Assembly (NCBI RefSeq): GCF_028583425.1
Contig: NC_072801.1
Coordinates: 15,954,001-16,018,000, forward strand
Length of the DNA stretch: 64,000 nt
Direction of reading: 5' to 3'
Source of the DNA: Eublepharis macularius
Taxonomy: Eukaryota > Chordata > Lepidosauria > Squamata > Eublepharidae
Part shown: positions 44,401 through 47,170 of the stretch, piece after piece
Layout: every line of letters begins with the position of its first letter
How positions within the stretch are numbered: position 1 is the first letter of the stretch
Translations under genes and position numbers: made by a program
Notes under the pieces: model-generated
Told to the model about the DNA's origin: nothing
Database searches by the model: none
Seen by the model: the letters and a program-made list of their open reading frames with translations, nothing else

Positions 44401-47170
44401 TGCGTCCGTTAAAATTCAGTACACAGTACTGGTGACCAGCACTGTATGTAAACGGATGTCGGATTCCAACTTCATACCTCATCTTGCTCCCCAAAGCCAC
44501 TTACTACACTGCTGTCTCCTTCATTTTATCCTCTCAACGACCTTCTGAGCAGAGAGAGGCTAAGTCTGTGACTGGCCCAAGGTCACTCGGCAAGCTTCCG
44601 TGGCTACGTGGGATTTGAACCTGGGTCTCCCAGATCCTAATCTGACTCTGTATCCGTTATATGATGAGTGAATGGGAACGGAAAAGGGAAACGGAGGAAG
44701 GAGGTTGGTTTCACAGTGCCTGGATGGCATGGGCGAGGGGTTAACTCCATCTGGTTGGGGCCAAGGCTGATCTCTTCTTGCTGGGAGGGAAGGAACCAAC
44801 CTTGCAGTAGCTCTTAGACAACTGGCCATGAGCAGAGGCTGCAGCTGTGGTTCTGAACCATTAATCCACCGCTGCCTCCCCACCAAGGTATGCAACACTG
44901 TCATTCAATACCCCACAGGAGGAGGAAGCAGATCCAAGGCTCTTGGCTATCCTTTTTCCAGGTCTGGAGGCAGAGGGGCCGCAGCTGCTAGCTTTTGGAG
45001 CCCAGCTTGAGCCTCACAATGCTGATCTCGATCTTCTAAACTCTCCAATGTCTGGCCTTCCCAGATAGCCCAGGAAACTGTCTTCCTGCACCATGACACT
45101 AATACATAAAACCCCAAAGGCTGTGGAAGCTCCCAGGTTCTTGGTGATGTCAGGATTTATCTCGCCTCCCCCGCAAGCCCCCACATTCTATCTAACTATT
45201 GAGTTCTCTCTCCATTCCCCTCTTCCCCAGGGACCAAAATACTGAGTGGAAGCACTGCACGGATGGATGCCTGTGTCCGGCACTTCAAGGAAGCTACAGG
45301 TAAAGTGGCAGTTCGAGAATTACTGAGACTCTATAAAAGAAGAGAGAAGCAGCTTTACTGGGAAAGGGGGATTTAACTATTAAATTCTAAGCTATTATTA
45401 GGGTTAAGATGAAAATTCTGTTTTATTATTCATAGTATTAAATAACAGATGCATTATCATGAATATATTATGAATATATCTGAGCATGCTAGCTAGGTAT
45501 TTTGTAGTTAAGTTTTTAGTATAACAGACATTTTATATAATTAAAATTGATTGAGAATAAGAAATGTTTAAAGAAATAAATAGAATATAAGTTAAATTGA
45601 TTAACTTATATGGGGGAGAGTAAAGAGATTAAGTAAGGGAATAGAAAATGGATAAAATGTTATACTAATAATATAAAGATTATTAATATATGCTAGCAAT
45701 GTGTTATTTAGAATATAGGATTTAGTAAAGGAGGGGTTAAAGGTAATTCTGTGTTATAAAAAAAATAACAAGCTTAGAAGAGAGTTTAAGTGTATGTTTA
45801 ATAGATTATATGAGGTAATAAGTAAGTAAGTAATAAGATAGACAGTGGGTTGGAAAACTGTTGGAAGTCAAACAAAAGGGGGGAGGAAAGGGAGGGGGTT
45901 AGAAGTAGATATTTACAAAGGGGGAATGTTTGTATTGAATGATTATATATTCTAATCCAATAAAAAAAATTTTTTTTAAAAAAGAAAGCTACAGGTAAGA
46001 AGGAAGTGCCTGGTTTTTCCCCTTGTTAGAGTTAAAGCCTCCACCTTCTCTTCTGGCATCCAGTTTGTGCCTTCTAGGTGTTGCCCTCCTTCCTTGCTTT
46101 AAAAACAGTATTTATTGAACAGCTAACAACAAGCTTTTTTGCAAGCAAATCCATTTCGCAATACAATTACATATCATCAGTTACTGCATACCACAGAATA
46201 CATTTGGGCGTGTTCCATCTTGAGATTGAGAGTTCTGATACATTTAAAAAAAAAAAAGATCAGCCATCTTTCATAGAATTAATTCACCCCAAAATGGGAC
46301 ATTCTTTCAGCATGAGCCTAGGGTGTTAATTTGATCATTAAACTCAGGTTGTAAACATTGTTAAACTATTATGGCCCTTTCCCCATCAGCTGATTGCAAG
46401 CAAGCAATCATTTATTTTATTTATATACCTGTGGGAAAGCAGGAGTATTCCGTCTAGGATTGCCAACCTCCTCCCAGAGTTACAACTGATTTCCAGACAA
46501 TAAAGATCAGTTCTTATGGAGAAAATGGTAGCTTTGGTGGGTGAATTCCATGGCATCACATCTCTGTTGAACTCTGCCATTCCCAGGCTCTGTCATTCCC
46601 AACTCTCCAGGAATTTCCCAGCCCGGAGTTGGCAACCCTAGTTCCATTATGTGAGCAGCCCCCCCCCCCCTTTGCAGTTTGAAGGGATACAATAATGAGC
46701 CAAATTTTAGGGCTTAGTTTAGCTCCTAGGTATACAGTTTGTGCGGGGGGAGGGTGGGGGTGGGGAGGGTTAAGCCTTTCTGCATAAAGAAAAGGTGAGC
46801 TATCTGTCCCCCACTGATCAGCAACACACGGTATCCTTTCTCGGCAGGGTGCTCTGTGGAGACGGCTCTGGAGGCTGCTTCTCTCCATCCTGCTCAGCTG
46901 TTGGGGATTGAAGACCAGAAGGGCACCTTGGATTATGACACCGATGCAGGTATTTATGCAGTGGGGAATGGGAGGGCAGCACTCCTAAACCGGAAGTGTT
47001 TAATGGCAGCTGTGCTGGTAAGAGCCTGGTGGTGACTCCCACTTCCTATACCAGTTACATCATTTCCTGCTTCTGCTCCAGATTTCTTGCTGCTGGATGA
47101 CAGTCTGCACATCAGAGCTACCTACATTGCTGGTCAGCAGGTCTGGAGACACAATGCCTTCATTCTCTGA
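35481..47170 (+). CDS. AMDHD2: N-acetylglucosamine-6-phosphate deacetylase
   Basis: Eleven coding exons join in frame to 410 aa (human about 409): 35481-35566, 39038-39174, 39650-39789, 40440-40494, 41683-41895, 42077-42165, 43331-43475, 44215-44322, 45231-45299, 46848-46949, 47082-47170. All introns are GT-AG. The enzyme removes acetate from GlcNAc-6-phosphate in the cytosol, giving glucosamine-6-phosphate; it feeds amino-sugar and sialic-acid salvage and limits hexosamine flux. It is an amidohydrolase-fold metalloenzyme of the NagA family. Metal and catalytic residues are present by alignment from memory: E144 in HLEGPF, H212 in SLGHSM, H233 in THLFNAML, D295 in VLVTDAI. The N-terminal FTNCWIL and the loop [17 protein letters not shown] fit the family. 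Two ATGs (35481, 35484) start in frame. Exon 9 ends inside an L1 target duplication (see 45291-45998). Confidence 0.97.
35940..36155 (+). mobile_element. tRNA-derived SINE
   Basis: 'gtttaaattcctcctcagct' (B-box side), 'tagcttacctcacaagatag', 'ggcaaggtgggatcc' and an AAATAAATATT end match the SINE at 34913, with more decay. It lies in the AMDHD2 intron preceding coding exon 2. Confidence 0.65.
36469..38024 (+). mobile_element. ORF1-only L1 relative (half-L1, HAL1-like), complete
   Basis: Flanked by a perfect 16-bp target duplication GGAATAACAGATAATC (36469-36484 and 38009-38024). The element (36485-38008, 1,524 bp) has a GC-rich 5' UTR of about 396 bp, one open frame, a pyrimidine-rich 3' UTR and a pure A tail preceded by AATAAAAAAATTTATAA. 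There is no ORF2 and no gap where one could have been lost from the host side, since both ends are intact. It matches the layout of mammalian HAL1 elements: an L1-type ORF1 that depends on another L1 for reverse transcriptase. Low decay suggests it is young. Confidence 0.85.
36881..37774 (+). CDS. L1-type ORF1 protein of the half-L1 element
   Basis: 297 codons, fully open, starting at [12 protein letters not shown] (36881). An upstream in-frame extension has no ATG. Domains: a coiled coil at about residues 20-105 ([20 protein letters not shown] onward); an RNA-recognition fold from about 108, with [20 protein letters not shown]; and a C-terminal domain with [22 protein letters not shown] and [11 protein letters not shown]. 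These match L1 ORF1p (Transposase_22), an RNA-binding trimeric chaperone. The tail is acidic and Gly-rich (about residues 270-290). It is a retrotransposon protein, not a host gene. Confidence 0.88.
   Translation: MAAKKQSPALGKSISATLQKGESLEELVRRAVVEAIKPFVDKLNETDQRVGLIESEVKTIKVAAGGEEKSALESASLVKATKKELKLVENQLIGLQVERTQTILRLQNVKEEENEDLWDLVSELLATPARTTKEEVKSDILEVHRASSKYATKRQLPREIIIDFSTKKIRDTILYNSYNADLDFMGLKVKILKDIPFLVRKRRFKYKKFAALLRDHGIKYKWLFPEGIWFRYKDQAYKILSEDQLKDFENKNPEFCCTKNEEKEEPEGGGRGEHCNSSCTERIASGTQKGEESLIRI
38025..38870. repeat. Possible degenerate tandem or LTR-like repeat
   Basis: Related phrases recur: 'cataaactttctctctcaag' with 'cccagtttgcctgcttcag'; 'catagactttctctcaggtg' with 'cacagtttacctgtctcaac'; then 'gcactcagcttgcctgtcaa'. 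They give roughly three degenerate units of 75-90 bases (38160-38350). Flanking DNA up to 38,870 is unassigned. It might be part of an old LTR interrupted by the half-L1, but this is weak. Confidence 0.35.
39288..39480 (+). mobile_element. tRNA-derived SINE
   Basis: 'gatgtggtggttagagtgcc', 'tcactgggtaaccttgggcc', 'aacctacctcgcagggtggt' and 'gatgttgtaagctgctttgg' are the family hallmarks. It lies in AMDHD2 intron 2 (between coding exons 2 and 3). The B-box region is shortened. Confidence 0.75.
39955..40112 (-). mobile_element. tRNA-derived SINE
   Basis: On the plus strand it reads reversed: 'tctgtgagataggttaggct', 'gaggatttgaacttgggcct' and 'ttgtaatgggtacaccact'. It lies in AMDHD2 intron 3. 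Confidence 0.7.
40108..40350 (+). mobile_element. hAT-like DNA transposon fragment
   Basis: Starts 'tagagatgggcacgaacca' and continues with many 'gttcgtg/cacgaac' words in both orientations, a pattern I know from a common squamate hAT family. The right terminal repeat is not found, so it is truncated at about 40350. Confidence 0.6.
40675..41158 (+). mobile_element. CR1 LINE, 3' part
   Basis: Encodes the end of CR1 ORF2 (40797-41147): [20 protein letters not shown], then [29 protein letters not shown] and FKKGLDE. It ends with 'gttggactagatggtctg', 'ttccaactctatg' and 'attctatg'. It is close in sequence to the copy at 61685. It lies in AMDHD2 intron 4. Confidence 0.92.
41462..41645 (+). mobile_element. 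tRNA-derived SINE head and body
   Basis: tRNA-like head: 'ggaccgtggctcagtggcgg' (A box), 'gctttacatgcagatggtcc' and 'caggttctgccccggcacct' (B box). The body is worn. It is not a functional tRNA: the cloverleaf is not complete and a SINE body follows. It ends close to AMDHD2 exon 5. Confidence 0.75.
42450..43160 (+). mobile_element. Penelope-like element, GIY-YIG end, hammerhead-like box and tail
   Basis: Broken frames around 42630-42910 give [10 protein letters not shown], then [16 protein letters not shown], TVAEHF and [20 protein letters not shown] pieces. This is the GIY-YIG endonuclease end of a Penelope-like protein. The 3' region holds CTGACGA (43031-43037), a stem, and GAAA (43055-43058), which match the catalytic core of a type I hammerhead ribozyme. 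The characteristic tail 'gttggtctttaagttgctac' follows. It lies in AMDHD2 intron 6. Confidence 0.8.
43672..43878 (-). mobile_element. 5S-rRNA-derived SINE
   Basis: Minus-strand copy from the BovB-like tail 'gtgccatcaagtcacagcag' to the 5S head ('ccaaccctgcttatcctccg' on the + strand). It lies in AMDHD2 intron 7. Confidence 0.85.
44345..44665 (-). mobile_element. tRNA-derived SINE
   Basis: The plus strand shows the reverse: 'ttttatcctctcaacgacct', 'gactggcccaaggtcactcg', 'gggatttgaacctgggtctc' and 'cccagatcctaatctgactc'. It has an interrupting insertion in its tail half. It lies in AMDHD2 intron 8. Confidence 0.75.
45291..45998 (+). mobile_element. 5'-truncated L1 inserted on the AMDHD2 exon 9 splice donor
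   Basis: A 682-bp insert (45304-45985) with a few codons of an ORF2 end ([11 protein letters not shown]), an AT-rich L1 3' UTR and an A-rich tail (CCAATAAAAAAAA, a T-run, then A6). It is flanked by an exact 13-bp duplication AAGCTACAGGTAA (45291-45303 and 45986-45998). The duplicated bases are the last nine of AMDHD2 exon 9 plus the first four of its intron. Two donor sites now exist: CAG|GTAAAG at 45300 and CAG|GTAAGA at 45995. The downstream copy is the ancestral context. Confidence 0.9.
46455..46640 (+). mobile_element. hAT-like MITE, second copy
   Basis: Starts TAGGATTGCCAACCTCC and ends GAGTTGGCAACCCTA, the same ends as the element at 33742. Flanking octamers ATTCCGTC and GTTCCATT could be a decayed target duplication. 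It lies in AMDHD2 intron 9. Confidence 0.75.

Follow-up and report, generated by a model that had tools for sequence, protein, structure and literature searches.

We analysed a 64,000-nt stretch of the gecko Eublepharis macularius (contig NC_072801.1, positions 15,954,001 to 16,018,000; genome of 2.237 Gb in 72 contigs), here called the window, within which all positions below are numbered. It carries the gene AMDHD2 and, at the border between exon 9 and intron 9 of this gene, a 5'-truncated long interspersed nuclear element 1 (L1) of about 0.68 kb, flanked by 2 copies of the exon 9 splice donor, of which the upstream one is most likely the one in use. The features at the locus are given below, with a slash marking exon/intron borders and cleavage sites.

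45231 to 45299, plus strand: AMDHD2 exon 9, 69 nt with the upstream donor, placed by tblastn; acceptor TTCCCCAG ending at 45230, in frame with exons 2 to 8 and 10 to 11.
45287 to 45303, plus strand: left copy of the duplication, AAGGAAGCTACAG/GTAA, with 13 exon and 4 intron bases; a direct repeat, read as 17 nt from the target-site preference of the sister copies.
45300 to 45305, plus strand: upstream 5' splice site GTAAAG (CAG/GTAAAG), read directly and scored; likely the working donor.
45304, plus strand: A at +5, not derived from the L1 (the sister copies have T before GTGGCAG); either a filler base or an 18th base of the duplication mutated from G.
45305 to 45981, plus strand, sense to the gene: 5'-truncated L1 with the 6 last codons of open reading frame 2 (ORF2) and its stop (45306 to 45326), the 3' untranslated region and the tail, delimited by sister-copy comparison and translation.
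45374 to 45376, plus strand: TAA, by translation the first in-frame stop if exon 9 runs to the downstream donor.
45959 to 45964, plus strand, sense to the gene: AATAAA of the L1, read directly.
45982 to 45998, plus strand: right copy of the duplication, AAGAAAGCTACAG/GTAA, a direct repeat identical at 16 of 17 positions, delimited by the sister target-site preference.
45995 to 46000, plus strand: downstream 5' splice site GTAAGA (CAG/GTAAGA) in the original intron context, read directly and scored.
46848 to 46949, plus strand: AMDHD2 exon 10, placed by tblastn and frame; acceptor CTCGGCAG ending at 46847, donor CAG/GTATTT at 46950.

Residues 21 to 406 of human AMDHD2 were matched colinearly in the window by tblastn in 9 pieces, and no match to residues 1 to 20 was found there in the same search. 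The exon number 9 assumes a single exon 5' of the first matched piece, and the remaining donors of the gene (exons 2 to 8 and 10) were placed by homology and frame; an AG at 39611 was considered as the border of exon 3 and was rejected when the acceptor of that exon was re-examined. Joined with the upstream donor, exons 2 to 11 form a single open frame of 379 codons that ends at the AMDHD2 stop, in keeping with the claim of a first-pass annotation of this DNA that the upstream donor preserves the normal exon. The best match in the PDB to the peptide encoded by exons 9 to 11 was 7nut (1.7e-35). Judged by the whole-gene match, with the exons ordered and in frame, the gene is AMDHD2, a gene of sugar metabolism that encodes N-acetylglucosamine-6-phosphate deacetylase, and the name given in the first-pass annotation is thereby corroborated by the tblastn match, the PDB match and the open frame alike. 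The genome search identified one copy of AMDHD2, and when the genome was searched for a further version of the locus free of the L1, none was found.

The element was compared with 40 scored places, the window copy included, out of 2,987 first-look genomic matches, which count as candidates and not as verified copies. The segment from about 45305 to 45985 was 92% to 96% identical to the 39 other scored places, here called the sister copies, and 2 further partial matches showed 83% and 78% identity. The sister copies extend farther 5', into L1 ORF2, which is why the description of the element as 5'-truncated is correct, and a short element with fixed ends was ruled out on the same observation. 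In a longer sister copy, L010, separate open pieces contained the Pfam domains Exo_endo_phos (3.7e-16) and RVT_1 (3.3e-17) and had LINE-1 ORF2p as their top PDB matches, with E-values of 1.2e-50 and 1.3e-44 to human LINE-1 ORF2p; the first open piece of L010, presumably ORF1, matched no Pfam family above the cut-off. The ORF2 remnant in the window reads WQFENY followed by the stop, in the frame taken from sister copy L009. By these comparisons the insert is a 5'-truncated L1, as had been proposed, and it lies in sense orientation. Its sense AATAAA, brought into intron 9 close behind exon 9, is a possible premature polyadenylation signal. We also noted that the tail of many sister copies is not plain A but follows the pattern CCAATAAAA(A)TTTTATAAAAA, with a run of T between the AATAAA and the terminal run of A (45959 to 45981 in the window).

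At both borders of the L1 there is a direct repeat. The 13-nt sequence AAGCTACAGGTAA occurs exactly at 45291 to 45303 and at 45986 to 45998, with starts 695 apart, and if the repeat is extended leftwards to 45287 and 45982, 16 of 17 positions are identical; the border between the L1 and the right copy is ambiguous inside a run of A. The duplication spans the exon/intron border and the motif CTACAG/GTAA is present twice, 695 bp apart, on either side of the element, both as the first-pass annotation had described. The length of the duplication was judged from other insertions of the same element. Among 24 of the 39 sister copies that were checked with long flanks, 16 gave duplications of 15 to 21 nt (16 to 19 nt in 14 of them), the match was no longer than 9 nt in 3 and absent in 5, and a site matrix was built from the 16, with the other 8 dropped. 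Of these 16 duplications, 11 are preceded by C and the other 5 by T, and the first duplicated base was A in 12, G in 3 and T in 1. On this matrix the start of the 17-nt reading, CACTTC/AAGGAAGC, scored 4.62 bits, the highest among the 30 positions from 45270 to 45299 and a value matched or exceeded by 1% of the 9,300 positions from 38000 to 47299, whereas the start of the 13-nt reading scored -5.19, which 40% of the 9,300 positions equal or better.

Since the 17-nt start fits both the cleavage preference and the duplication lengths of the sister copies and the 13-nt start does not, the duplication is best read from these alignments as 17 nt with one mismatch, of which the 13 nt are the exact core. 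The earlier description of 9 exon bases plus GTAA holds for that core, and the length is revised to 13 exon bases plus GTAA. The first nick most likely fell at 45286/45287, within the exon. A tail-like AAAAAAGA stands at the right border and recurs in 3 sister copies (L002, L004 and L025). It was considered as support for the 13-nt reading and was rejected, since in these 3 copies, also labelled L044, L046 and L060, the GA belongs to the copy's own duplication. With its L1 sequence, its target-site duplication and a pyrimidine/purine step at the cleavage site, the window copy resembles the sister insertions. As an observation on the family as a whole, the first nick of these gecko elements seemingly favours TC/AA (TT/GA on the bottom strand), where C precedes the nick at 11 and T at 5 of the 16 sites, those of copies L009, L014, L041, L044 to L049, L051, L055 to L057, L059, L060 and L062; the human L1 nick site is TT/AAAA, unlike the TC/AA of the gecko copies.

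The first-pass annotation placed the start of the L1 at +5 of the upstream donor, and here the sister copies contradict it. In the alignment of the 40 copies, 36 of the 39 other rows begin at the base equivalent to 45305, each preceded by T before GTGGCAG, and the remaining 3 rows begin 2, 3 and 1 bases beyond it. The A at 45304 differs both from the T of the sister copies and from the G of the original intron, and by this alignment L1 sequence starts at +6. A duplication of 18 nt in which the G at +5 changed to A is indistinguishable from one of 17 nt followed by a single filler base. No extra base was present at the 5' junction in 11 of the 12 truncated sister copies with a duplication (L056 has 3; L041, a 107-base L1 match that starts inside the duplication, was counted as lacking a filler for that reason), which leans a little towards the 18-nt alternative.

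Two donors are thus available to exon 9, and we scored both with a vertebrate donor weight matrix and by pairing with U1, neither the matrix nor the U1 sequence being fitted to this species. The hexamers read GTAAAG at 45300 and GTAAGA at 45995, as had been reported. The upstream donor scored 3.86 bits and -9.4 kcal/mol, compared with 7.24 bits and -11.0 kcal/mol for the downstream donor. By the standards of the gene the upstream donor appears adequate and ordinary, not poor. The 8 other AMDHD2 donors scored 1.84 to 7.41 bits, those of exons 4, 5, 6 and 10 falling below 3.86, and 6 of the 8 pair with U1 more weakly than -9.4 kcal/mol; the end of exon 5, TAG/GTAAAG (41893 to 41901), carries the same weak hexamer.

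Several points weigh against the upstream donor as the main site of splicing. The downstream donor exceeds it on both measures, so that the claim that GTAAGA is the better match is confirmed, and the weight matrix places the upstream donor no higher than sixth among the 85 GTs between 45231 and 46847, below 45995, 46795 (6.58 bits), 45743 (4.82) and 45822 and 45826 (4.03 each), although of these 5 only 45995 and 46795 (-9.6 kcal/mol) pair better with U1. Moreover, the matrix and the U1 sequence are not adapted to this species, the other donors of the gene were deduced from homology and frame, and the choice of donor is itself drawn from the sequence of a single assembly.

If exon 9 were instead extended to the downstream donor, it would measure 764 nt, and the frame read through the upstream donor would run for 24 codons foreign to AMDHD2 before the TAA at 45374, more than 600 nt ahead of the exon end, which agrees with the earlier claim of added L1 sequence with an early in-frame stop. 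A stop that far upstream of an exon end would make the transcript a likely substrate of nonsense-mediated decay (NMD). The locus might on this basis act as a switch between productive and unproductive splicing, in which a sizeable share of transcripts uses the downstream donor, retains the L1, terminates at 45374 and is degraded, so that AMDHD2 output is lowered. The greater strength of the downstream donor speaks for such a switch, as does the most stable duplex that the upstream donor forms with U1, which contains one bulged A because the first L1 bases, GT, occupy the register of G at +5 and T at +6 behind the extra A. Bulge registers in the pairing of U1 with 5' splice sites have been described, and are reported to go along with more alternative 5' splice-site selection, in a review (PMC9311317). 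The extended exon would, however, be far above the size of a usual vertebrate exon, and we regard a switch of this kind as unlikely.

The bulged register itself was recognised post hoc and nothing special is claimed for it. The upstream donor ranks seventh in U1 pairing among the 256 continuations of CAGGTAAA (median -8.3 kcal/mol), and pairing of equal strength is reached at 20 of 661 truncation points with one extra A, the actual one included, and at 161 of 661 without it; 27% of 5,000 random continuations of CAGGTAA pair equally well with U1, for which reason we do not consider the register exceptional.

A different outcome would be the removal of the L1 as an intron of its own, with the upstream GTAAAG joined to CTACAG in the right copy of the duplication, which would rebuild CAG/GTAAGA for a second step to exon 10. 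Such recursive splicing would turn a vertebrate long interspersed nuclear element (LINE) into its own intron, with both splice sites taken from one target-site duplication in the manner of introners and with the final mRNA unchanged. Because the duplication contains CAG/GT, its two copies provide a donor and an AG in matching phase, and a run of 8 T (45970 to 45977) ends 17 nt before the border. The 17 nt ahead of the border are nevertheless rich in A and contain 2 earlier AGs, and on an acceptor weight matrix the site at 45994 scored -4.67, rank 61 among the 130 AGs from 45320 to 46899, compared with -0.48 to 8.88 for the 9 acceptors that fit AMDHD2 exon starts. We therefore hold this outcome to be very improbable.

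We also considered whether the junctions could stem from misassembly or from a rare allele that the sequenced animal carries, since they are known from one assembly only. The L1 is, however, an individual copy, which departs from the commonest base of the alignment at 22 of 661 positions and at 7 of these has a base found in at most 1 other copy, and the 2 copies of the duplication differ at one base, so that the insertion looks aged and would not seem to be a recent or chimeric join. Part of the other 15 differences are probably differences between subfamilies, which makes 3.3% an upper figure for the divergence. A squamate substitution rate is quoted from Green et al. in PMC6050309, where it is printed as '2.4 x 10^9' per year and site and is read by us as 10^-9. 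A divergence of 1.1% to 3.3% corresponds at this rate to roughly 4 to 14 million years, and to older ages at slower rates. Because the divergence implies such an age, the insertion is unlikely to be private to the animal that was sequenced, and an artefact or rare allele as the source of the junctions is, in our view, scarcely credible.

Taken together, the most probable history, which we propose with considerable confidence, is that target-primed reverse transcription placed a copy of a resident L1 across the border between exon 9 and intron 9 in the single AMDHD2 gene, and that the upstream donor most likely remained the main one. We infer that the first nick would have been made on the bottom strand, 13 bases inside the exon, at TTC/AAGG in top-strand notation, and that the second followed 17 (or 18) bases onward, in the intron. 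Because target-primed reverse transcription duplicates the sequence between the nicks, the whole of exon 9 and GTAA would have been kept 5' of the L1, and a second exon end and donor placed behind it. The upstream CAG/GTAAAG would then continue as the main 5' splice site, the L1 would merely form the initial 0.68 kb of intron 9, and the protein would be unaltered, while the downstream donor may be used at a low level, yielding the 764-nt exon with its early stop as a likely NMD target. The first-pass annotation held that the duplication rescued a donor that would otherwise have been destroyed. This is true of the first nick, where 13 bases of the exon end would be lost without the duplication, but not of the second, where GTAA would be kept regardless.

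The first-pass annotation called so clean a rescue rarely seen. With a donor number on the order of 200,000, the 2,987 candidates multiplied by this number and by 13 suitable start positions, divided by 2.237 Gb, give about 3.5 chance events for this L1 family before selection, a rough estimate that depends on the donor figure. In open-licence literature queried with fixed phrases, no title or abstract start named an L1 whose target-site duplication crosses a splice donor, which is no proof of absence, and no paper on AMDHD2 in geckos was among the matches listed. The locus offers a natural, clean test of how a retrotransposition duplication can preserve a donor that is hit by the insertion itself, and of the choice between 2 near-identical donors separated by 695 bp. 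Use of the downstream donor or of the recursive step would show how a single insertion of a LINE can give a vertebrate gene a poison exon or an intron within an intron.

The AMDHD2 L1 illustrates a known process cleanly. It shares with ordinary 5'-truncated L1s made by target-primed reverse transcription a LINE-1-type ORF2 in its sister copies, the 5' truncation, the A-rich tail, a duplication of 17 nt and a sister-like cleavage site, and differs from them in that its duplication happens to straddle an exon/intron border. Introners likewise take splice sites from target-site duplications (Gozashti et al. 2022, PMC9860276), and no evidence for a pattern of such gain in vertebrates is reported there. 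A usable splice site supplied by the duplication is common to introners, as described there, and to the gecko insertion, although here the L1 hit a donor that was already there and made its intron longer, and no new intron or intron family is shown. By predicted scores the AMDHD2 L1 has an adequate donor and a poor acceptor (rank 61 of 130). With stwintrons, the donor-nested twin introns of fungi (PMC12403724), it has in common a second intron-like unit at the donor of the outer intron.

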